From positions 1 to 64,000 of the forward strand of contig MKWA01000014.1 in the NCBI GenBank assembly GCA_001899285.1: a stretch of 64,000 bases of DNA, written 5' to 3'. Positions 13,875 through 25,977 of the stretch are shown here, in pieces; the first letter of the stretch is position 1, and each line of letters opens with the position of its first letter. This DNA is from Rhizobiales bacterium 64-17. GTDB lineage: Bacteria; Pseudomonadota; Alphaproteobacteria; Rhizobiales; Xanthobacteraceae. The position numbers were made by a program, and so were the translations under genes. Under the pieces are notes generated by a model. The model saw only the letters and a program-made list of their open reading frames with translations, ran no database searches and had not been told where the DNA came from.

Positions 13875-15260
13875 CTAATCCACCTGGACGAGACCGACCC
13901 GTGCGGAATGTGCAGCGTGCGCGTTTCTAATAAGCGTGGTTGGAAGCTCGCGCAATCTGAACCAAGGTTCGATCCCGTCGTAAGCAGCATTGACAGGCAC
14001 CGTCAGCTTATAACGATTGCAATACATTAGGACCACATCTTGAGCGTCAAAATTTGGACGCGACCAACGCAGTTTTAAAGTTGGAAGTGTGCCAAACGTG
14101 TTTTGCTTGTAGTCACTGCTGATATCTCCCTTCCAGGCCGCCGGAACTACAAAGCCCGCAATTAGGAACGAGTTTATCCTGTGGTTCTGCGCTGCATCAC
14201 AAACCGGCGAGAGCTCGATCAGAACGGGTTGAGCCCCCTGCTGCCATTTTTCGAACACCGGCCCTGCCTGCTTCTTGCTGCACAGACTCACAAAAGTATC
14301 CAACGATGTCCCAAAGGAACTTTGGAATTTTTGTGAGTCCGCGACCCTGAACACAGTGCCAGGCAGATAGAGACCGGCATCAGTAGATGCGGGGGAAGTT
14401 AACAAGAGCCCATTCATATGGGCAGCGAAGCCGTTGCCTGTTGCCCCAGGAGGATTCTCGACCAGCCAGTTGCCATGGGCGGCGACATTTGCGATTCCGG
14501 CAGGATTATCCAATTGGTCTGTCAGCAATTCCGACAAAACTGCCAGGAGATATCGGGGAGCTGCCGCTGCTGTGAAGTCACCCTCGCTTTGTGCCTTCGC
14601 GAGTCTTTGCATCGTAGCCTTTAGGCCGTCCTTCAAATCCCGTGTTGAACCCTGAATGGCAACCTCGGCGACAGCGGTGAGCCCCTGACTGACCTGGGCG
14701 CAGGCGTCTTCGACCAGACTTTCCCAAGACCAAAGCAAGTTTACCGCCTCCTGACCCTGGAGCGTGTTATTAACTTCGGCCTTCAGTAATTCGGACCAAT
14801 TTTCATCGGGCCGATCCTCCGGCTTGGGCTTGTTCATTTCAACAAAAATCAACCGGCCATTGTAGCGAGGTTCATGTTCAAGAAGCGTGCGTATGAACAA
14901 CTGCGCCTCGGTCTCCTGATCGTCAGGAGGCACGCCTTCGACGGCCACTTTTTCATTAGCGTATTTGCTCCAGATCACAACAATTACGGGTGCGGTCTCC
15001 GGCGAAACAATCCGGGTAAACGCGTTTGCGGTATACGCTGCCGCATCCTTGCCAATTGTGGCTGAGAGATGAAGGTCGAGAAATACAAGCCGAACGCGCT
15101 TAAACGGCTGCGCGGGAAGACTGTCAACGGTACCCAGCAGATGCACCGTACTTACATGCATCTCGTTCAGAGCTTTCAGAATTTCCTTGTATTCATCTTC
15201 CTCATCATCAATGACGCAAACCGAAGGCGATGCAAGATTCGCAATCATGTCATTGCTCAT
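13875..15260 (-). CDS. REC-like (response-regulator-type) protein of the GHKL defence cluster
   Basis: 461 residues from ATG at 15260, which overlaps the end of the upstream kinase-like gene by 11 bp; a longer start at 15341 is possible. The first 110 residues look like a diverged receiver domain: VCVIDDEEDE gives the acidic cluster (D18, D19, E20), LVFLDLHLS the presumed phospho-acceptor D62, and VIVVIWSKYA the conserved Ser/Lys strand. The remaining 350 residues match no known DNA-binding output domain. Coupled translation with the dual-ATPase protein indicates they act together, the REC domain perhaps as its phosphorylation target or regulatory subunit. Confidence 0.72.
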   Translation of the reverse strand: MSNDMIANLASPSVCVIDDEEDEYKEILKALNEMHVSTVHLLGTVDSLPAQPFKRVRLVFLDLHLSATIGKDAAAYTANAFTRIVSPETAPVIVVIWSKYANEKVAVEGVPPDDQETEAQLFIRTLLEHEPRYNGRLIFVEMNKPKPEDRPDENWSELLKAEVNNTLQGQEAVNLLWSWESLVEDACAQVSQGLTAVAEVAIQGSTRDLKDGLKATMQRLAKAQSEGDFTAAAAPRYLLAVLSELLTDQLDNPAGIANVAAHGNWLVENPPGATGNGFAAHMNGLLLTSPASTDAGLYLPGTVFRVADSQKFQSSFGTSLDTFVSLCSKKQAGPVFEKWQQGAQPVLIELSPVCDAAQNHRINSFLIAGFVVPAAWKGDISSDYKQNTFGTLPTLKLRWSRPNFDAQDVVLMYCNRYKLTVPVNAAYDGIEPWFRLRELPTTLIRNAHAAHSARVGLVQVD

Positions 15261-17343
15261 CGAATTGTAGAGCGACAACGGCGCCGGTGATTTCATCCGG
15301 TACATCGATGTCACCGTCATCTGGGAACACAAGACGACCACGATTTACAGTCATGACTTCGTTGACGATATAGAGTCCCAGGCCCATGCTCCCGACGCGA
15401 CGGCTGAAAAACGGCTCGACCAAGTCTTCGGGACGATCGTCACCAAAACCCGGCCCGTTATCTCCAACAACGATCGCAGGCCCGCCTTCGAGGTCTCGCG
15501 TGGTCGCGATGTAGAGAAGTTTTTGTTTCGGGTTTTTCGATTCTAGCCAGTGGATGCTGTTATCAATGAGGTTGGTGATCGATGCCACGAGCATCTGTTT
15601 CGACCCCTGAACGGGAAAATCTTTTGCGCCGTCTTCCATTCCGTTCAAAAGACTTATTTTGTGACGCTTCAGCCGGATCTCTGCGCTGAAGATCGCCTCT
15701 TTAATAAGCGCGGATGCCGTCGTTTTGGCCGGCGTGGGATTTTTCAGGAGATTGGTAACTGGCCGCATCGCTCGATAAAGTTGGTCCACAAGAGTTTTGA
15801 TGCGCTCAGGTTTGGCGTCATGCGCCGCCGCGGCACGAAGCTCATCGAGAATTTTTTCCGCGCCATGCAGCATCATGCCGATGGTGAGACCGGGAACCGC
15901 GGCGTGAAGGAGCTGGTCACGGTACATTTCAAGTTCTTTTTCGGCAGCTTTTAGGACGGGCTCAACCTCGGCTAGGACGCCTTTTTGTTCGAGTACTTCG
16001 CGCACTTCAGAGAGTTTTTCGAAAACCTTCTTGCCGGTCCCTTTGCCGAGAGCTTCACGAATACGCTTTTGATCTTTTCCTTTTTCCGCCTCAACCTGCG
16101 TCAGGACCGCAATTACAGCGTCCCTGAAGTCCTCAAACGCCGGATTCTCAATGAATCCCTCGCGGTTTGTCTTTTCCCGCAGATCATCGCTGGCGGTTGC
16201 ATCAAGACGTAGAGCCCCCAGAATCTGGTTATTACTCGTACGCGCTGTGGGGGTGTTTACGCGGCGCAGATCCAGATTGAGCCAGTCGTTTCCGGGCTCG
16301 CCAAAGTCATAAACTCGGATGCCGTCTCTGTAGATTCGTATGCCGCCATTTTCATCGAGGTAGCTTTTAAGGCCCTTCACGTCGCCCGTGACAGCCTTGA
16401 GAACAGATGGGTCGCGGTCGAACATCCAGAAATCAAACTCGACCTTTCCGATCTTGTGACCGGAGAGGTCCAGCGACACCGACTTTCTATCCTCCCGCTT
16501 TTCTAGCGGAAATTTCAACTTTGCTTTGCGCTTGTTCAGTTGCTTTTCAAACGCAGAAGGCGGAGTGAAGCTGTATTCAAAAGCGCCGACATCGCCATCG
16601 ATTGAACCGCGGATGTGATAGAGTGCGCACTTGTGCGCATCATCTGCAGTAAACATATTTTTAAGCCACTCTTCCCTTCCTGGGGCTGAGAGGCTGACCT
16701 CAAAATCAGCAGGCCCTTTGAAGGGTGAGCACAGGCTGTTCACTGAACGATACAGGCGACGCAGGCTGCCGCGCGTCCAGACTTCGCGCAGGCGCGTTAC
16801 TTCGAAACGCGTGCCATGATTGTTTCCGGGAAACGTCTCCGGCTTGCGCTTTTGCAGAGTAATGAAGGCATTATCGAGATCATCCGCGGATTCGATTGCG
16901 TCCCAATCAAACTCCAGAACAATCTCCTCACCGCCGCGGGTGCGGGTAATCATCGTGATATCATGACCCAGCTTGTGTATCGAAAGACGGCCAAGACCTT
17001 TTTCGCCCAGGGGGTAGCGGTTGAATTTCTTGGTTCGCTTGTCAGCTTGGCGCTGTAGCAGCTTCACATCTGTCGCGATCATCATCCAGACATCGCGCAA
17101 TGTCGCTTCGCTCATGCCGGTGCCATCATCTTCGATGATGATTTTGCCAGTCGCTTGGTCATCCGGATTGATCACCGTAACGAGACACATTGTGGCGTCG
17201 GCGTCGTAGGCGTTTTTGACGAGTTCGAAAACCGCAAGATTGGCGTCGCGGATAAGCTGCTCACCAAGCAGCGTCAGAAGTCGCGGCTTTACTTTGAAAG
17301 TCAGACCGTTCTTCGGACGAGTTTTTGAGACCGCGCCAGCCAT
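15250..17343 (-). CDS. Dual GHKL ATPase: HSP90/MutL-type N-terminus plus histidine-kinase-type C-terminus
   Basis: 697 residues with two Bergerat-fold ATPase modules. The N-terminal one has ELVKNAYDADA (40-50), DDGTGMS (72-78) and GEKGLGR (113-119), as in MutL, HSP90 and MORC proteins. The C-terminal one has NLIDNSIHWLE (from about 591), DNGPGFG (628-634) and MGLGLYIV (653-660), as in histidine kinases, with a HisKA-like His in GMMLHGAEKILDEL. Related GHKL proteins are known in restriction-modification neighbourhoods (the MORC/paraMORC families described by Iyer, Abhiman and Aravind). The gene sits 3 bp from the Dcm-like gene and overlaps the REC-like gene, forming one operon. Confidence 0.85.
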   Translation of the reverse strand: MAGAVSKTRPKNGLTFKVKPRLLTLLGEQLIRDANLAVFELVKNAYDADATMCLVTVINPDDQATGKIIIEDDGTGMSEATLRDVWMMIATDVKLLQRQADKRTKKFNRYPLGEKGLGRLSIHKLGHDITMITRTRGGEEIVLEFDWDAIESADDLDNAFITLQKRKPETFPGNNHGTRFEVTRLREVWTRGSLRRLYRSVNSLCSPFKGPADFEVSLSAPGREEWLKNMFTADDAHKCALYHIRGSIDGDVGAFEYSFTPPSAFEKQLNKRKAKLKFPLEKREDRKSVSLDLSGHKIGKVEFDFWMFDRDPSVLKAVTGDVKGLKSYLDENGGIRIYRDGIRVYDFGEPGNDWLNLDLRRVNTPTARTSNNQILGALRLDATASDDLREKTNREGFIENPAFEDFRDAVIAVLTQVEAEKGKDQKRIREALGKGTGKKVFEKLSEVREVLEQKGVLAEVEPVLKAAEKELEMYRDQLLHAAVPGLTIGMMLHGAEKILDELRAAAAHDAKPERIKTLVDQLYRAMRPVTNLLKNPTPAKTTASALIKEAIFSAEIRLKRHKISLLNGMEDGAKDFPVQGSKQMLVASITNLIDNSIHWLESKNPKQKLLYIATTRDLEGGPAIVVGDNGPGFGDDRPEDLVEPFFSRRVGSMGLGLYIVNEVMTVNRGRLVFPDDGDIDVPDEITGAVVALQFDEQ

Positions 17344-17346
17344 GGC

Positions 17347-18297
17347 TCAGGCCGACCCGATACATTCGACAATCGCCTGCATGACCGGCGGACAAACGCC
17401 ATTGCCGAGAATTTTGATGTTCTCTCTGCGACTACCGTGGTTCATGATATAGTCGCTTTTGAATCCCATGGCTTTTTTCAATTCAGACACCTGCAACATT
17501 CGCATATTGTGACCGCCCGCCCCCGGCTCGACCAGAGCAAATCGATCAACGGTCGTAATTGTGCGCAGGGGCCGATCCAGAGGCTGCCACCCGCCGCTTC
17601 CATCGCTGCCATAATATACCAGCAAAAATGCTGCCTTTTTCCCAACTTTTGCGAACCCACGCTCGGCCCGCTCCAGCGTAGGCTTCGCGCGTCCAGGCCG
17701 GAAAAGGGGCGTTGTGTCCCATGTGCCTGGCTTGTCGAGAATGTCATGAACGGTTTTCTTTTTCCGTATTCTCGGAATTTTGATATCGGCCACTTCATCT
17801 TCCAGGTCACAGACGACAAAGAGACGCCTGCGGCTTTGCGGTACGCCGAAATCGGACGCATCGAATACAAATTCGCGAACGTTATACCCCAGATCCTGCA
17901 ATGCCTCTTTCAGTTCGCCATAGCGGGACCATGGCCGCATATGGACAACATTTTCCATGACGAGCCAGCGGGGCCTGAATTCTTTGGCGTATCGTAGAGC
18001 CTGCATCGCGGTCGCCCGACTGGCCTCGGAACGAGGGGCCGCGCCTTTTGCGCAGGTATGGTTGGTACATTCCGGCGAAGCCAACAGAAGATCGATGTTA
18101 CCGATCTTGTTGTGAAGCGCCCGCGGTCCGACGTCCTCCAATCTGGCGGTGACAACATGCGCCTCTTTGAAGTTCTCCCGATAGGTTTCGGTTGCTACGT
18201 CACATAAATCTATGCCGCAGACAATCTCGGCACCGGCCTGTCGGGCACCGTAGCTGCTGCCGCCCCCACCACAGAATATGTCAAGCGTCCTGATCAT
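17347..18297 (-). CDS. Cytosine-C5 DNA methyltransferase (Dcm-like)
   Basis: 316 residues from ATG at 18297, preceded by a strong GGGAAGG site; a longer start at 18360 would leave only 3 bp before vsr. Motif I is LDIFCGGGGSS, the catalytic loop is ASPECTNHT with Cys77, motif VI is MENVV (114-118) and motif VIII is QSRRRLFVV. The catalytic PC dipeptide is replaced by EC (SPEC instead of PPC), a departure from most family members. It is the first gene of the Dcm / GHKL / REC operon and diverges from vsr. Recognition sequence unknown. Confidence 0.9.
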   Translation of the reverse strand: MIRTLDIFCGGGGSSYGARQAGAEIVCGIDLCDVATETYRENFKEAHVVTARLEDVGPRALHNKIGNIDLLLASPECTNHTCAKGAAPRSEASRATAMQALRYAKEFRPRWLVMENVVHMRPWSRYGELKEALQDLGYNVREFVFDASDFGVPQSRRRLFVVCDLEDEVADIKIPRIRKKKTVHDILDKPGTWDTTPLFRPGRAKPTLERAERGFAKVGKKAAFLLVYYGSDGSGGWQPLDRPLRTITTVDRFALVEPGAGGHNMRMLQVSELKKAMGFKSDYIMNHGSRRENIKILGNGVCPPVMQAIVECIGSA

Positions 18298-18363
18298 TAG
18301 CCTTCCCGTTGAGGCGATTTCAGACCAGGCTACCAAGTCAAAGGATGTCTGACCAGGCACAAA

Positions 18364-18789
18364 ATGGACGTACTTACTCCCTCCCAGCGCAGTCTTTGCA
18401 TGTCACGTATCAAAGGGCGCAACACCAAACCCGAGCTCGTATTGCGGCGCGCACTATGGGCGCTTGGCCTCAGATACCGACTGCATACAAAGCTGCCCGG
18501 CAGGCCGGACATCACATTTGCTGGACGGCGACTGGTCGTTTTCATTGACGGCTGCTTTTGGCATGGATGCCCCAAGCATGGTGTGCAACCGAAAACGAAC
18601 CACGAATTCTGGCGCGATAAGCTGAACAGCAACATCGCGCGCGATCGAAGGGTTACGGCGCAGTTGCGAGCTGATGGATGGAAGGTCGTCCGGGTTTGGG
18701 AACATGAAGTGAAGCAAGACATTTCTGCTGTCGTCGGCCGTATTCTGAAAATCATTGCGAGGGAAGATTTTCATGGACGCAATTCATAA
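18364..18789 (+). CDS. vsr: Very short patch repair endonuclease
   Basis: Nicks beside T:G mismatches that arise when 5-methylcytosine deaminates, directing repair back to C:G. 141 residues, close to E. coli Vsr. It has RSLCMSRIKGRNTKPE at the N-terminus, metal-binding Asp49 in GRPDITF, and the CFWHGC motif (64-69) containing the catalytic His and zinc-ligand cysteines. It diverges from the Dcm-like gene across 66 bp, so both share a control region, and it overlaps the following endonuclease gene by 17 bp. Confidence 0.93.
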   Translation: MDVLTPSQRSLCMSRIKGRNTKPELVLRRALWALGLRYRLHTKLPGRPDITFAGRRLVVFIDGCFWHGCPKHGVQPKTNHEFWRDKLNSNIARDRRVTAQLRADGWKVVRVWEHEVKQDISAVVGRILKIIAREDFHGRNS

Positions 18790-19933
18790 AGCCAAACTGC
18801 AGAACGCAGACCTGATCATTGATCGGGTGTACGCGGGCGGAAGAAACGGAAACGCGTCCGACGACCCGCTTCCTCCGCTCGTTGGGGTGAGCAATCAGGG
18901 TGGGTTCCGTTACATTGGAAACAAAGAGAAGCCCCGACTTATTGTTTTAACTTCGACGCTGCGGGATTTGGACTGGCCTGACAATCTGGACCGGCAATCA
19001 GGAACGTTCACATATTTTGGTGACAACAAAAGCCCCGGCAATGAGCTGCATAAGACAAAACGCTTCGGCAATCTTCTGCTGCGCGATCTATTTGATCGCC
19101 TGCATCGATCGGGTGCTCGTGCAGAGGTGCCTCCGGTACTAATATTCGCCAATGTCTATCGCTCATGGAGAGACGTTCAGTTTCTTGGGCTCGCTGTCCC
19201 AGGCGTGGAAAATCTTGATCCAAACAGCGATCTAGTTGCCGTCTGGAGATCCAAAGACGGGCAAAGATTTCAAAACTATCAGTCGAAGTTCACAATGCTT
19301 AACGAAGGCGTAATTTCCCGGCAATGGCTGAAAGAAGTCAGCGCGGGAAACTCACTTGGCATTAACGCCCCGCCTTCATGGAGACGGTGGGTCGAGAAGG
19401 GCGTATATGACGCGCTCAAAGCCCCCAGGGTTCTGAACCACCGAACCAAATCTGAACAATTGCCGGATACCGACGAAGGCCGCGCCATCATTCAGATGGT
19501 GCGACAGCATTTTGTGGACGATGAATACCGGTTTGAGCAGTGCGCAGCCAAGCTGGCGGAACTTATGCTGCCCCGAATTGTCTCGCTTGATTTGACTAGG
19601 CCAAGCAGGGATGGCGGACGTGATGGTATCGGAAAGTACCAACTGGGGGACGGCGCTTCCGCAGTGGATGTCAGTTTCGCGCTTGAAGCCAAATGCTACG
19701 GTCTCACGAATTCCGTGGGTGTGAGCGAGTTATCGAGACTTATATCCCGGCTGCGGCACCGGCAGTTCGGTGTGCTCGTCACAACATCGTACGTTGCAGA
19801 TCAGGCTTATAAAGAAATCAAAGAGGACGAGCATCCCATCATAGTAATTTGCGCCGCGGACATCGTGCGACTGCTGAAAGCGGCGGGCATTGCCACGGCT
19901 CACGACGCATTGGAATGGCTGGCTGCGTTTTAG
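18773..19933 (+). CDS. Restriction endonuclease with C-terminal Mrr-type nuclease domain (AspBHI-like)
   Basis: 386 residues from ATG at 18773, with the ribosome site GAGGGAAG inside vsr. The C-terminal third has an Mrr-type PD-(D/E)xK core: the D284 region in RDGGRDGIG, E305-A-K307 in FALEAKCYG, then LISRLRHRQFGVLVTTSYV, typical of Mrr catalytic domains. The N-terminal 200 residues (PLVGVSNQGGFRYIGN) resemble the DNA-reading half of AspBHI-like enzymes, some of which cut methylated DNA; this part is tentative. Linked to Vsr and the Dcm-like methylase, it is presumably the cutter of the cluster. Confidence 0.75.
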   Translation: MDAIHKAKLQNADLIIDRVYAGGRNGNASDDPLPPLVGVSNQGGFRYIGNKEKPRLIVLTSTLRDLDWPDNLDRQSGTFTYFGDNKSPGNELHKTKRFGNLLLRDLFDRLHRSGARAEVPPVLIFANVYRSWRDVQFLGLAVPGVENLDPNSDLVAVWRSKDGQRFQNYQSKFTMLNEGVISRQWLKEVSAGNSLGINAPPSWRRWVEKGVYDALKAPRVLNHRTKSEQLPDTDEGRAIIQMVRQHFVDDEYRFEQCAAKLAELMLPRIVSLDLTRPSRDGGRDGIGKYQLGDGASAVDVSFALEAKCYGLTNSVGVSELSRLISRLRHRQFGVLVTTSYVADQAYKEIKEDEHPIIVICAADIVRLLKAAGIATAHDALEWLAAF

Positions 19934-19975: not shown

Positions 19976-20725
19976 TCACTTCGCCCTTGCTGCCTCAGCA
20001 GCAATATGCCCGGCGAGCGTCGTTACGAACGTCCTTAGTCCGGTGAGGTCTGAAAGTTCGGAATATGCTCCGTCATTAGTGGCGGTGCGTGGCGATGCTA
20101 ATACGCAGGCCGATGTGTAGAGCTGCTCCTGAACGAGACGCTGACAAAGCACGTCGTATCGCTTCAAATAAGAAGCACCCTGAAAATCCTTAAATACAGG
20201 AAAGTGCGGAGAGCGGTCCGTCACAGGACGACGAGATTCCGGCGCATCTTCAACCATCATCATCCAGCCTACGAACGGGCGAGGATGTTTGCCGAACGCG
20301 TTTTCACGATAAGCGGTCCACAAATCGTGCGCAGTGCCGATCGCTTCTTCTGTTCGGTTGTTGAAGTTGTTGCCGAATGACGGTCCGACCTGGCTTTTGA
20401 GTTCGATAGCCGCCACCAGACTATCTCCTTGGGTGACGAGAAGATCCCACAGTTTGGTTGGACGAAAATATCCCGGAAGCGTCAAAACCGCGCGCCGTTC
20501 ATGAATGACCGCATTACGAAGGCCGTTTGCCTTCACCAAATCAATGACGAGAGCTAGAAAGCCATCCATGTTTTTGCCGGCGGTGACGCCGGCGCGTTCG
20601 CCTTGATCTGCTTTTCCGGCCTCGATTTGTTTTTGTCGAGCCTTCTCTCTATTTCCCCAAAAGGCCATCGTGGCCTCGCGCGCCTTGCGCTCATAATCAG
20701 CAAGTTCAAGCGACATCAGATTCAC
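19976..20725 (-). CDS. PaeR7I/XhoI-family type II restriction endonuclease
   Basis: 249 residues, the size of PaeR7I. The catalytic site is seen as WDLLV (D94) and ELK (E108-x-K110) in [19 protein letters not shown]; the family is recognised from this block with [14 protein letters not shown]. Known members cut CTCGAG. The gene is downstream of its methylase on the minus strand with a 20-bp overlap, so the toxic nuclease is translated after the protective enzyme. The specificity is inferred from the family, not seen. Confidence 0.88.
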
Positions 20726-22439
20726 TTCCGCCCAGCACCAATTGTTCGGCTGGGGTCATTTTATAAAGTTCAAAAACAGCTTGGTTACAGGCGACCGCAT
20801 CGCGCGACGCTGCCGCTTTAATTAGCCGCTTACGCAATGAAACCGGAACATCCGTCCAGGCAGGGACGCGAATTCGACGCAAGTACTGTGCTTGAAAGCG
20901 CAGATACCCCCCGCGCATCTTTGTCGAGTAGACGGCGACAAACATGCGCGCGATGCCGGACAACAACACGGCCTGCAAGGCCTGCAAATCCCACGTCTCC
21001 GACGTGAGGTAATACAGGTTGTGGTGCGGATAGAGACCTTCGTTTTCGTAAACGATATGCGCTTCTCCCTTGATATCCGGGATAAGCAGCTTTGGCTTGG
21101 CGGCAAGAGCGGGATAAATGCGGTCAATGGTCCGATACCAATTAGACGGAGCCTTTTGCGCAACATGCCGACCGGCAATCTGATCGCGCCTTGCTTCAAG
21201 GTAGCTCCGCAGTCGCGGATATTTGATCAGCTCCACCAAGCCTCCCTTATCGTCAAAGGGATTGATTACGCCTAAACCGCGCCAATCGACGCAGCGGCTT
21301 AAAATGTCACGCGTCATTACCAACGGCAATTTGCGGTCGGCTTCAACGTTAAGTTCGTCAAATTTACCAATAAAGGCTCGATCCGCACCCGTCGCGACAC
21401 CAATCCCGACTTTGCATCCAGCTTCCTCGATGGTCGGAAAATCTCTTTCAAGGCGGCGGATTAGGGCGAGTTGATCAGAGGACTCCAATATCCACGGCTC
21501 CGCGCCCGCAACAACGCGTGGGACAATCTTCACCCCGGTATTTGAAGCAGGTTTGACTTTGGAAGTCAGATGCTGCGCGAGCGTTGTCAGTTCGTTCGCA
21601 TCAATCGCCGGACGATGTGCGACGCGAGTAGCATCGGTCTTTTCTCTATCGATGACGATGATCGCAGGATAGGCAATGACATCGCTGTGAAACGCGGGTG
21701 TGTCCACCATGTCCACATAGGCTTTGAGATGAAAGTGATCGGCAACAAATTGCCGCAACGGACCGCCATAGCGGTTTTTCATCCAACGATCGGCACAGAT
21801 GAAACCAAGCGTCCCCTTCGGGGAAAGGCTTTGCAACGAACGCTGGATAAATGGGACGTAAATATCAGCGCGATCATATATGGTATGGTACCGTGCGCGA
21901 TATTCTGCCATCAGCGCGTCCGCGATCAATTCTTGCCGAACGTAAGGCGGATTGCCGATCACAAAGTCGAATTGGCCGTCCAACTCGATCAAAAGAAAGT
22001 CGCCGAAGACCAGCCATTGATCGGCAAGACTTTCCGCAGTGCGTCTGGCGATCCCAGCTTTCGTAAGATGCGCAACGACTGCGGTACGCGTTTCGCGATA
22101 GCTGTGGCGATGTAACTCGACCGCTCGAATAGCATCCGCAAGCGCGTTATAGGCCTCGGGCTTTCCGGCTTTGTCCCAGGTCTGCAACAGCCGGTCGATC
22201 GCACACAGAAGAAAATCGCCGCCGCCGAAGGAAGGTTCAAGCAAGCGCATCGTCAGCAGCGGACGGTCGATCGTATAGCCGCTAAGATCGAGAATGAACT
22301 CGACGACTTCCTTGCGGGTGAAAACTGCCCCGCGCTGTTCAATGCCCGCAGAAGCCAAGGCGTTGACAGCCGTCGTGACCGGACAATCTCCGAAGAGATT
22401 GGGTCGTCGAAGGCTAATAAGGGGGGCGTTCGAGGTCAT
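20706..22439 (-). CDS. Type II N6-adenine DNA methyltransferase partner of the PaeR7I-like enzyme
   Basis: 577 residues from ATG at 22439. The Eco57I/Taq-type fold shows motif I as [11 protein letters not shown] (about 67-77) and motif IV NPPY at 163-166 ([11 protein letters not shown]), so it methylates adenine at N6. The rest is the target-recognition half. It precedes the endonuclease by a 20-bp overlap. An in-frame start at 22517 exists, but the promoter at 22476-22505 lies between the two, favouring 22439. Protects host DNA at the presumed CTCGAG sites. Confidence 0.9.
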
Positions 22440-22475
22440 TTCAGAAGCCAGTGTAGAAGGATAGCGATTGGAACA

Positions 22476-22505
22476 AAAATAGAACTGCGCCCGCTGGCGG
22501 GTCAA
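22476..22505 (-). promoter_or_regulatory. Probable sigma-70-type promoter of the PaeR7I-like operon
   Basis: On the minus strand TTGACC (22500-22505) and TATTTT (22476-22481) are separated by 18 bp, about 37 bp before the chosen methylase start. Confidence 0.5.
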
Positions 22506-22815
22506 GGACGCATCCATATCGACGCACAGGACGCGGTCTTCCGCGCGATATTGCGTTCAAGATGGCCCGAGCGTTTTCACAGAAAGACGGTCATTCCATG
22601 CCACTGATTCGGTGCCGCTGGAGAGACAAATCTCCCGACCCGACGGCGCGGGGTGTCGGGGGCGGCAAGACGCCCCTGAATCGATGGGGTGCCGGGGAGA
22701 GCCGAAACCTCCGCCCGGCGCGTGGTCCAGCGGCAAGACGCCAGGTCGTGGTTCAGCGGCGACACGCTGACCGTGGGGTTGCCAGGGGAGCGCGGAGGCT
22801 CCCGCTGGATGGTGA

Positions 22816-23900: not shown

Positions 23901-24092
23901 TTGACGTCCCCCGACAAAACGATTCAGACTCTAAGTCAAACGCCGCCACTCGCACCGATCGAAGTCCGCGACCCAGGTCATGATGACCGCATCATTGATT
24001 TGGTTCGCCTACTCGCCCGCCGCGCCGCTGAGTATGATTATGCCCAGCTCCTGTTGCGTCGTGAAAACATCGACCCAGGAACTATGCAATGA
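23901..24092 (+). CDS. Small protein translationally coupled to the serine recombinase
   Basis: 63 residues from a TTG start at 23901, chosen because a near-perfect ribosome site AAAGGAG lies 6 bp upstream. Its stop overlaps the recombinase ATG (ATGA). The C-terminal half is amphipathic (DDRIIDLVRLLARRAAEYDY), probably one or two helices. Its position suggests it is a partner or directionality factor for the recombinase or simply a coupling leader; no family is recognised. Confidence 0.6.
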   Translation: MTSPDKTIQTLSQTPPLAPIEVRDPGHDDRIIDLVRLLARRAAEYDYAQLLLRRENIDPGTMQ

Positions 24093-25945
24093 CTCTAACG
24101 AAAGAGATAACCAGAGTTGGCGTTTATTCTCGCTACTCTGACGACGAACTCCAAAGCCCGGCATCTGTTGAAGATCAGATCCGCGAGTGTAAAGAATTCG
24201 CACAACGTGAGGGCTGGGAAGTCGTCGCCATCTACACCGATGAAGGAATTTCGGGCTTCACTGCGAAAAATCGTCCAGGGGTTCAGCGGCTGATTAAAGA
24301 CGCGATGTCGAAGAAATTTGATGTCGTTCTGTCAGAGGCGCTGGATCGCATCAGCCGCGACCAAGAAGACGTGGCGCATGTTTATAAGCGCATGCAGTTT
24401 CAGGGCATCTCAATGCACACCCTGACAGAGGGTGAAATAACCCCCCTTCACATCGGAATGAAGGGCACGATGAACGCGCTATTTCTTGTCGATCTCAGCC
24501 GCAAGGTGAAACGAGGCCAGAGGGGTCGCGTGTTGAGCGGAAAAATTGGCGGCGGAAATTGCTACGGCTATAACGTCCTGAAAAATCAAAATGCCAACGG
24601 CGAAATCGAGCGTGGCGAACGCGAGATCAATAAGCTCGAAGCCGATATCATCCGCCGAATATTCCGCGAGTACGTCGATGGCGTTTCGCCCAAAGCGATT
24701 GCAGCCCGACTAAACAGAGAGGGCATCCCCTCTCCGCGCGAAGGAACAGTGCGCAAAGGCAAGATTATCACCGGATGGTCACCGACCACTATCTACGGGA
24801 ATTGGCAACGTGGCTCCGGCATCCTGAATAACGAGCTCTATGTCGGTCAGCTTGTATGGAACAAGGTCAGCTACCCGAAGAATCCGGATACTGGCAATCA
24901 CGTGGCACGTGTCAATCTGCATAAAGATTTGGTTCGAACGGAGATCCCGGAATTGCGGATTGTCGATCAGGATCTCTGGGATTCCGTGAAGAAGCGCCAA
25001 CTCAAAGCTCGGGGAGAAAAGAAGGCTTTCTGGGCTCATCAGCGGCCAACCCACCTCTTCTCATATCTTCTCAAGTGCGGCTGCTGTGGAAATGGTTTCT
25101 CCAAAATTTCCTTGGCGCATTACGGATGCTCAACCGCCAGGAATAAGGGCGCATCGCTTTGCAAAAATTTGCGAGTGGTCCGTCAAGACACATTGGAAGA
25201 AACGGTTCTATCGATTCTTCAAACGCACCTAATGGAGCCGAAATTGTTGGCGGAGTTCTGCAAGGAATATACGTCACACCTCAACCGATTGCGCATGGAA
25301 AACAACGCGACCGTTTCATCTCGCAAGGCGGAACTAGCAAAACTTCAGGCGCGTCAAAAGCGCATCGTCCAGGCCGTTATGGATGGCTTCTCGACGGAAG
25401 CGATGAAAGAAGAGTCGAACGCTATCGATCGTCGCGAGCGAGAACTGAAAGAACTGATCTCGACTGACCGCGAAGCACCTGTTCTGCTTCATCCGAATAT
25501 GGCGCAGCGATATCATCAAGCAGTCGGAGAGCTGTTGTCCGCGTTGCGCGACAAGAACCACCGAACGCAAGCAATCGAACTGATTCGTAGCCTGATCGAG
25601 AAGATCGTTCTGACTCCCGACGAAAACTCCGAAGAGTTGTTGGTGAATCTGTATGGCGATCTGGCGGGCATCCTAAAACTGGCAACCGTAGGTAAGACGG
25701 CCCATTCGGAGACGGAGCTCAAGCAAATCGCGCTGTTTATGTCTGAGATGAACGCCAGTCCTGAAAGCATGCAGGACAAGATGGTTGCGGGAGAAGGCCT
25801 CACGCTTACACGCAATAGGCGAAACTCCCGCAAACACAGGCTTTCAAACAATTCGCGTCTCAGTCCCAACCCTACGGGTATTTCCGTAAGGCAGGGGAAG
25901 ATGGTGGGCCCGGCAGGACTTGAACCTGCAACCAGAGTGTTATGA
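24089..25945 (+). CDS. Large serine recombinase (integrase of the element)
   Basis: Catalyses integration and excision by double-strand cleavage with a serine nucleophile. 618 residues: resolvase domain (VGVYSRYSDDE, presumed Ser17; ALDRISRDQED), recombinase domain (GYNVLKNQN, IRRIFREYVDG), a zinc ribbon (LKCGCCGNGF, CSTARNKGASLC) and a C-terminal coiled coil. The last residues (MVGPAGLEPATRVL) are translated through the attachment site and the antisense strand of the tRNA gene, the stop being provided by the tRNA anticodon region. In the excised circle the frame would continue differently into the left end. It is coupled to the small gene upstream. Confidence 0.93.
   Translation: MTLTKEITRVGVYSRYSDDELQSPASVEDQIRECKEFAQREGWEVVAIYTDEGISGFTAKNRPGVQRLIKDAMSKKFDVVLSEALDRISRDQEDVAHVYKRMQFQGISMHTLTEGEITPLHIGMKGTMNALFLVDLSRKVKRGQRGRVLSGKIGGGNCYGYNVLKNQNANGEIERGEREINKLEADIIRRIFREYVDGVSPKAIAARLNREGIPSPREGTVRKGKIITGWSPTTIYGNWQRGSGILNNELYVGQLVWNKVSYPKNPDTGNHVARVNLHKDLVRTEIPELRIVDQDLWDSVKKRQLKARGEKKAFWAHQRPTHLFSYLLKCGCCGNGFSKISLAHYGCSTARNKGASLCKNLRVVRQDTLEETVLSILQTHLMEPKLLAEFCKEYTSHLNRLRMENNATVSSRKAELAKLQARQKRIVQAVMDGFSTEAMKEESNAIDRRERELKELISTDREAPVLLHPNMAQRYHQAVGELLSALRDKNHRTQAIELIRSLIEKIVLTPDENSEELLVNLYGDLAGILKLATVGKTAHSETELKQIALFMSEMNASPESMQDKMVAGEGLTLTRNRRNSRKHRLSNNSRLSPNPTGISVRQGKMVGPAGLEPATRVL
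25902..25913 (+). repeat. Right attachment site within the tRNA 3' end
   Basis: TGGTGGGCCCGG, identical to the left copy at 6275-6286; it is the complement of the CCA end and acceptor strand of the tRNA. Confidence 0.8.
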
Positions 25946-25977
25946 GCACTCGGCTCTAACCATTGAGCTACAGGCCC
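25902..25977 (-). tRNA. tRNA with CAT anticodon, probably tRNA-Ile2 (lysidine type), alternatively elongator tRNA-Met
   Basis: Complete cloverleaf with encoded CCA (25902-25904): acceptor GGGCCTG / CGGGCCC, D arm GCTC...GAGC, anticodon arm GAGTG-CTCATAA-CACTC, variable TGGTT, T arm GCAGG-TTCAAGT-CCTGC. The anticodon CAT fits Met or the Ile AUA tRNA; the T arm with TTCAAGTCC and the short D loop resemble bacterial Ile2. The element is inserted exactly at its 3' end, leaving it functional. Confidence 0.92.

Follow-up and report, generated by a model that had tools for sequence, protein, structure and literature searches.

Gene Content and Conservation of the Cluster

The stretch of DNA analysed here (64,000 nucleotides, positions 1 to 64,000 of contig MKWA01000014.1 from Rhizobiales bacterium 64-17; hereafter, the window) carries a compact cluster of five genes, which encode a receiver-domain protein (REC), a dual GHKL ATPase, and a C5-cytosine methylase on the minus strand and a Vsr endonuclease and a further nuclease, divergently, on the plus strand. 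All five open reading frames (ORFs) are present in the window's ORF list and agree with the original prediction in order and strand, and four of the five proteins bear the expected domains (HATPase_c_3 and HATPase_c; C5 DNA_methylase; Vsr; RE_AspBHI_N and Mrr_cat) according to Pfam, PADLOC, and NCBIfam. The further nuclease had been described as Mrr-type, a label that missed its AspBHI/MspJI-type, 5-methylcytosine (5mC)-dependent character by sequence; the puzzle posed by the cluster is therefore the pairing of a predicted 5mC writer with a predicted methyl-cutter, which raises the question of how the cell avoids cutting its own DNA. The features are as follows:

13875..15248, minus strand: receiver-domain protein (REC) whose C-terminal domain, about 300 amino acids (aa) long, bears an invariant Cys-Asp (homologue alignment)
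15250..17343, minus strand: dual GHKL ATPase with an N-terminal MORC/MutL-like HATPase_c_3, a middle region, a DHp-like His493, and a C-terminal HATPase_c (Pfam)
17347..18297, minus strand: C5-cytosine methyltransferase, DrmMII-like, motif IV SPECT (PF00145, PADLOC)
18298..18363, no strand: divergent methylase/vsr gap (66 bp) with CCAGG at 18325 and 18353 and a degenerate element copy
18364..18789, plus strand: Vsr endonuclease (TIGR00632, 1.5e-44; PDB 1cw0, 2.3e-19)
18773..19933, plus strand: AspBHI/MspJI-type endonuclease with an SRA-like domain and Mrr_cat (PF18062, PF04471)

Homologue comparison places the methylase start most likely at 18297 and the nuclease start at ATG 18773, the nuclease gene sharing 17 bp with the end of vsr (a TTG ORF begins at 18755). 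The predicted 3-bp gap between the methylase and ATPase genes stands; the predicted 11-bp overlap of the ATPase and receiver genes does not, as it needs a receiver start at 15260 and homologues favour ATG 15248, leaving a 1-bp gap to the ATPase (the ORF itself reaches 15341).

One further locus, a contig of a Hyphomicrobiaceae metagenome-assembled genome (L007), carries all five genes in an identical order, with identities to the window of 76% for the kinase-like ATPase, 78% for the methylase, 62% for Vsr, 65% for the nuclease, and 55% for the receiver. Two more loci, L022 (genome G045) and L148 (genome G1074), have four of the five genes and lack the nuclease; given the shared order in L007 and the four genes in L022 and L148, the five-gene grouping is beyond chance. 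The proposed search for the same five-gene order thus succeeded to the extent of one locus, and the five-gene unit as a widespread arrangement is ruled out, the nuclease being present in only 2/24 loci that combine the ATPase with the receiver (see below). In genome G045, which is 98% complete with 6% contamination, a search run without a positive control returned no nuclease. Separately, the four-gene block of L022 (1-7500) ends at an apparent phage terminase, identified by eye, where the nuclease would be.

The Nuclease as an AspBHI Relative

The nuclease matches RE_AspBHI_N (PF18062, 2.9e-64) and Mrr_cat (PF04471, 2.5e-14) and aligns with AspBHI (PDB 4oc8) over residues 15-389 (E 1.7e-126). 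The pocket residues of AspBHI, as given in PMC4499157, map onto the window protein as W69 to W74, D71 to D76, Y82 to Y87, Y83 to F88, G84 to G89, D85 to D90, R87 to K92, and N63 to T68. The swaps have precedents in the family, with Lys as in LpnPI and Phe for Y83 as in MspJI, and the N63 position, Thr in the window nuclease, is Ser in MspJI; the Gln of loop B3 is kept. Across 21 aligned nucleases, which include proteins with and without a linked methylase, W69, D71, Y82, Y/F83, D85, and K/R87 (AspBHI numbers) and the E-A-K motif are kept in every row, position 63 is variable, and G84 is Ser in L007. Alanine at D71, Y82, or D85 abolished cleavage by AspBHI (PMC4499157). Judged by sequence, the window nuclease is predicted to be a 5mC-dependent AspBHI/MspJI-type enzyme, resembling that family in its domains, 5mC pocket, catalytic motif, and near full-length alignment and differing from it in its linkage to a C5-methylase, Vsr, and a GHKL module and in recognition loops that are partly unlike those of AspBHI (N47 in place of R42; another loop 2B). 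The MspJI gene adjoins a cytosine methylase gene, now thought inactive (PMC3874153).

At E 1e-20, the nuclease was found in 3/385 genomes of the class, 3/398 of the phylum, and 4/377 of the order, the source genome included each time, and elsewhere in 20 plasmid records (10 of them covering at least 80% of its length), five viral contigs, and one phage scaffold; eight of the ten long plasmid matches (all but H42 and H49) and none of the ten short ones were taken into the comparison of loci. Of 22 distinct nuclease loci, among them the window and L007 and with stretches of unequal length, 15 have a C5-methylase within the stretch (a figure in which the general clustering of defence genes is uncontrolled), 10 have Vsr, and two have the ATPase-receiver pair. 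At least two MZA-type genes, together with a C5-methylase, occur in seven of the 22, three of which have Vsr too, and eight contain a gene for a GHKL ATPase, which belongs to either of two kinds. The methylase-linked loci include Pseudomonadota and Bacillota; at L028 and L030, only the methylase end falls inside the stretch, at L031 other genes intervene, and at L033 the methylase stands beside an NgoPII-type restriction endonuclease (REase). No methylase falls within the stretch in the remaining seven loci. The source genome has two C5-methylases in its 4.63 Mb, so plain chance proximity of nuclease and methylase is small. Its second C5-methylase (L236, G000:C10:110418-111536), which has a convergent, overlapping Vsr gene, means that another 5mC mark may meet the nuclease.

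The Methylase, Vsr, and the CCWGG Element

The methylase matches PF00145 (2.7e-37), has DrmMII as its best PADLOC model (318 bits), and keeps motifs IV (SPECT), VI, VIII, IX, and X. In a tree of 49 methylases, it groups with those of L007 and L022 (starred), and a starred 13-row set unites it with methylases of ATPase-receiver, MZA, and nuclease loci, SPECT being common to all members checked of this set. A viral scan with the window methylase alone gave no match.

Two CCAGG sites lie in the 66-bp gap between the methylase and vsr (Poisson P ~0.01), and the block that holds them is conserved in L007 and L022. The full element consists of CCTGG, 19-20 bp, and then CCTGGTARCCTGG; the window copy is degenerate (CTTGGTAGCCTGG) and is not among the matches of the two-part scan given below. 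Upstream of methylases, CCTGGTA is present in the sense orientation in 11/49 distinct regions and in antisense in 0/49; upstream of ATPases, the figures are 0/90 and 2/90, and the antisense copies upstream of Vsr (4/30) and nuclease (3/17) genes are as expected of divergent genes. The binomial P of 8e-12 for the methylase enrichment, taken at the background rate, makes the case look stronger than it is, because related regions are not independent. When 5.85 million strand-bases were scanned for the two-part element, 10 of the 13 matches (nine distinct) fell just upstream of methylase motif I, and three lay elsewhere, one of them (L231) originally fetched by the same pattern. Vsr is present in all nine loci with the element upstream of motif I; in L136 and L139, the element falls within the longest methylase ORF and so may lie on either side of the start codon. 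Nuclease-linked methylases with CCTGGTA are those of L007, L029, L136, L139, L140, and L146, the window copy being degenerate. In viral methylase loci (76 of 80 used, four omitted), the element at up to two mismatches was seen in 6/13 close loci, one of which offered only 21 bases of the region, and in 1/63 distant ones. A pattern scan with the extended element returned four contigs, none with a match to nine gene profiles, and a sigma-70 promoter scan around the gap found nothing.

Promoter sites of such a kind are known in restriction-modification (R-M) systems, namely CfrBI and LlaDII (PMC3874152), and DISARM modifies CCWGG (PMC11676413). From the element, the methylase is predicted, at about even confidence, to make 5mC in CCWGG. 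Among six family members with tabulated sites, the inner C of this site fits those of five in 8/8 contexts and that of AspBHI in 4/8, the outer C fits only MspJI (32/32) and FspEI (8/32), and PsuGI (BB5mCGD) would not fit the mark; provided that the window nuclease acts as most family members do, the inner-C fit therefore predicts a conflict with self. Loss of the methylase can expose cells to harm from a Vsr-like enzyme (PMC12907096), and such harm may be another way in which the block maintains itself.

The ATPase-Receiver Pair and Its Relatives

The ATPase matches HATPase_c_3 (2.8e-22) and HATPase_c (9.8e-16), and N44, G74, G76, His493, N591, N595, D628, G630, G632, G654, and G656 are kept in 19/19 aligned rows (D72 in 17/19). 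The receiver protein is without a Pfam match above the cut-off, its one match being to TetR_C_21 (E 0.03). The homologue in L022 matches Response_reg at E 0.11, and a profile of the receiver reached a best E of only 0.12 against solved structures. The receiver-like identity proposed for it nevertheless holds up, as D14, D58, W93, S/T94, and K140 are kept in 14/14 aligned rows, together with the C-terminal C350 and D351. The Cys-Asp of the C-terminal domain (window 13875-14900 for the domain) also occurs in receivers beside HEF_HK proteins (L046-L052).

In kind, the association of a dual GHKL ATPase/receiver pair with a C5-methylase and Vsr has precedents: the original prediction regarded a kinase-like GHKL protein and a REC protein linked to C5 methylation and Vsr as unusual, and HEF_HK (PF19191)/Response_reg_2 (PF19192) pairs had already been described with C5-methylases and Vsr (Bellieny-Rabelo, 2021; PMC8011034). 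The likeness lies in the dual HATPase (HATPase_c_3 and HATPase_c at the ends), the receiver next door, the C5-methylase, and, often, Vsr. The ATPase family matches HEF_HK, represented by seven aligned proteins, over its full length (hhalign probability 100, E 8.7e-73, 656 columns), and the receiver profile matches Response_reg_2 weakly and over the receiver part only (probability 71, E 3.7e-5), the Cys-Asp motif being common. PF19191 and PF19192 gave no match to the window pair even with an E threshold of 10, and PF19191 gave none in the source genome in a search that found HEF_HK in 10/249 genomes of the phylum, nine of them over the cut-off. With a full-length ATPase match, a weak receiver match, a common Cys-Asp, and no Pfam match, the pair is therefore placed as a diverged branch of the known kind. 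It differs in the length of the ATPase (697 aa vs. about 1000 for the seven aligned HEF_HK proteins), in having H-G and not His-Glu/Asp at the DHp-like His, and in the AspBHI-type nuclease of the window, the words AspBHI and Mrr being absent from the main text of PMC8011034.

The ATPase is rare, with 3/199 relatives (E 1e-30) and 3/377 genomes of the order (E 1e-60), the source genome itself included in both counts, and a scan of genome contigs gave one locus, L007; a search of plasmids for the receiver protein gave no match. When ATPase loci were counted at a match of at least 500 aa and at least 100 bits (n = 95, with the best 80 of 84 viral-contig relatives used), 23 had a receiver match, which lay directly downstream on the same strand in 23/23. 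These 23 loci hold the methylase in 21, Vsr in 11, and the nuclease in two, and the 72 without a receiver match hold the methylase in 29 and Vsr in 13; the addition of L148 gives 24 ATPase-receiver loci, three near-identical locus pairs included, with the methylase in 22, Vsr in 12, and the nuclease in two. As originally predicted, the cluster goes beyond a simple type II pair, and the ATPase and receiver accompany the methylase in 22/24 loci. The original prediction was to fall if the ATPase and REC genes were not conserved with the nuclease and methylase in other genomes, and the result is divided: they are conserved with the methylase and, because the nuclease occurs in only 2/24 of these loci, not with the nuclease, which is therefore an exchangeable part. 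A neighbour scan of ten proteins from nine loci showed that the pair can stand close to different nucleases, with EcoRII-C in L010 and MvaI_BcnI and HNH_2 in L060, the remainder being phage genes, weak matches, or nothing.

MZA systems (MzaB-E) likewise have a GHKL ATPase and, as noted above, MZA-type genes accompany nuclease relatives and C5-methylases; the window ATPase belongs to a different family and is paired with a receiver. At L029, the only locus at which Mza identity was checked, the genes match MzaB, C, D, and E, and MZA-type sets with a C5-methylase beside AspBHI-type nucleases were observed at L028, L029, L030, L139, L146, and L147. Assignment of the cluster to MZA or DISARM was rejected: among the matches listed for eight window proteins, there is no Mza model and no DISARM protein besides the methylase (DrmMII). 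The restriction neighbourhoods of MORC/paraMORC proteins (Iyer, 2008; PMC2292703) also combine GHKL ATPases with cytosine methylases, Vsr, and nucleases, and differ in that the part of that report consulted describes no receiver partner and no 5mC-dependent nuclease. No description of the five-gene combination was found in a literature search whose reach mostly stopped short of subscription papers.

Genomic Setting

The gene block probably sits on a mobile island. GC content is 53-58% over 8-26 kb of the window vs. 61-69% in most of the 2-kb steps outside it (lower steps also occur at 30-32, 34-38, and 42-44 kb), and the low-GC stretch encodes a tyrosine recombinase as well as a conjugative coupling protein. 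At 24089-25977, one end of a gene for a large serine recombinase overlaps a tRNA-Met on the other strand, which likely marks the island end; a search for an attachment-site direct repeat at the tRNA gave only one 14-mer and none that was convincing. Directly adjoining the cluster, at 19976-22517, an XhoI-type REase and an Eco57I-type N6 methylase form a second restriction system on the stretch.

Interpretation and Significance

The reading favoured here, tentatively and with somewhat less than even confidence, is that the genes form a defence cassette built on C5 methylation, in which gating or sequence context would keep the methyl-directed nuclease away from self DNA. The methylase would write 5mC, predicted at CCWGG-type sites, and would be controlled via site copies in the promoter region common to the divergent vsr-nuclease operon, and Vsr would mend T:G mismatches left by deamination of 5mC. 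The AspBHI-type nuclease would cut 5mC DNA in its own context, for example foreign methylated DNA, and the dual GHKL ATPase and receiver may form an ATP-dependent gate on methylase or nuclease activities, as MZA genes may do at other loci that have related nucleases and methylases.

Several observations weigh against this reading. The nuclease is missing from 22/24 ATPase-receiver loci, its link to the ATPase rests on two related loci, and its link to methylases is subject to the uncontrolled clustering of defence genes mentioned above. Seven same-clade methylases without the ATPase-receiver pair, one of which has the ATPase and no receiver match, are also without the element, which is thereby ruled out as a constant feature of the methylase clade, and CCTGGTA was not seen in the examined stretches of the nuclease-linked loci L026, L027, L031, L033, L138, and L147. 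Nuclease and methylase distances are correlated (Mantel r 0.54, p 0.0002, 15 loci; r 0.50, p 0.0002, 13 loci), and after thinning of close pairs the value is r 0.36 (p 0.06, eight loci); co-divergence of the two proteins, not being robust to thinning, was dropped. Finally, an acid follows the DHp-like His in 17/19 ATPase rows and is replaced by Gly in the window and L007 (the L022 ATPase likewise has Gly). In histidine kinases, the acid beside the His is the general base. Of the energy or phosphorelay control suggested in the original prediction, a phosphorelay by the ATPase-receiver pair is only weakly supported, the DHp-like His being kept and its acidic neighbour lost in the window and L007.

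Much of the same evidence could be accommodated by two independent systems, a methylation module of the HEF_HK/Response_reg_2 kind (ATPase, receiver, methylase, and Vsr) and an ordinary type IV enzyme that lies behind vsr by accident and whose context spares the resident mark. This explanation, which is possible if somewhat doubtful, would account for the scarcity of the nuclease among ATPase-receiver loci, the four-gene G045 genome (in the search without a positive control), the EcoRII-C or MvaI_BcnI and HNH_2 proteins near the pair in relatives, the seven nuclease loci that show no methylase in the stretch, and the departures from AspBHI in the recognition loops; it sits poorly with the overlap of the nuclease ORF and vsr, with the gene order kept in L007, and with methylase linkage in 15/22 nuclease loci, which exceeds the density of two C5-methylases per 4.63 Mb. 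The classical alternative for the ATPase and receiver, a cytoplasmic two-component system in which the phosphorylated receiver controls the transcription or activity of R-M genes, after PMC8011034, is distinctly unlikely: His493, N591, N595, D628, G630, G632, G654, and G656 are invariant in 19 rows and the receiver active-site residues are kept in 14/14, but the window and L007 have H-G in place of H-E/D, and the C-terminal domain of the receiver is without a known-family match above the cut-off.

Two further explanations concern the nuclease itself. It occupies the spot of EcoRII- or MvaI-type enzymes in two relatives and is linked to C5-methylases, as would be expected had it turned into an orthodox type II enzyme blocked by its own methylase; the same guess was once made for MspJI and proved wrong (PMC3874153), and the window nuclease retains W, D, Y, F, G, D, and K in the 5mC pocket as well as the Gln of loop B3, including positions at which alanine abolished AspBHI cleavage (D71, Y82, D85; PMC4499157), which makes this the least probable of the explanations considered. 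It is also unlikely, though less so than either the orthodox or the two-component alternative, that the writer and the cutter act on the same 5mC sites, the CCWGG element and the gate making the two activities exclude each other as a bistable switch for a methylate-then-cut immunity that takes in the cell's own DNA. If this were true, infection or loss of the gate would lead the cell to methylate and then cut DNA, itself included, a kind of immunity for which no description was found in the literature consulted.

The occurrence of 5mC-pocket nucleases near a C5-methylase in 15/22 loci, with a GHKL ATPase gene present in eight of the 22, turns the survival of the cell and the role of the ATPase into testable questions. 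Likewise, the cis-element offers a concrete, refutable prediction of both the specificity and the regulation of the methylase.

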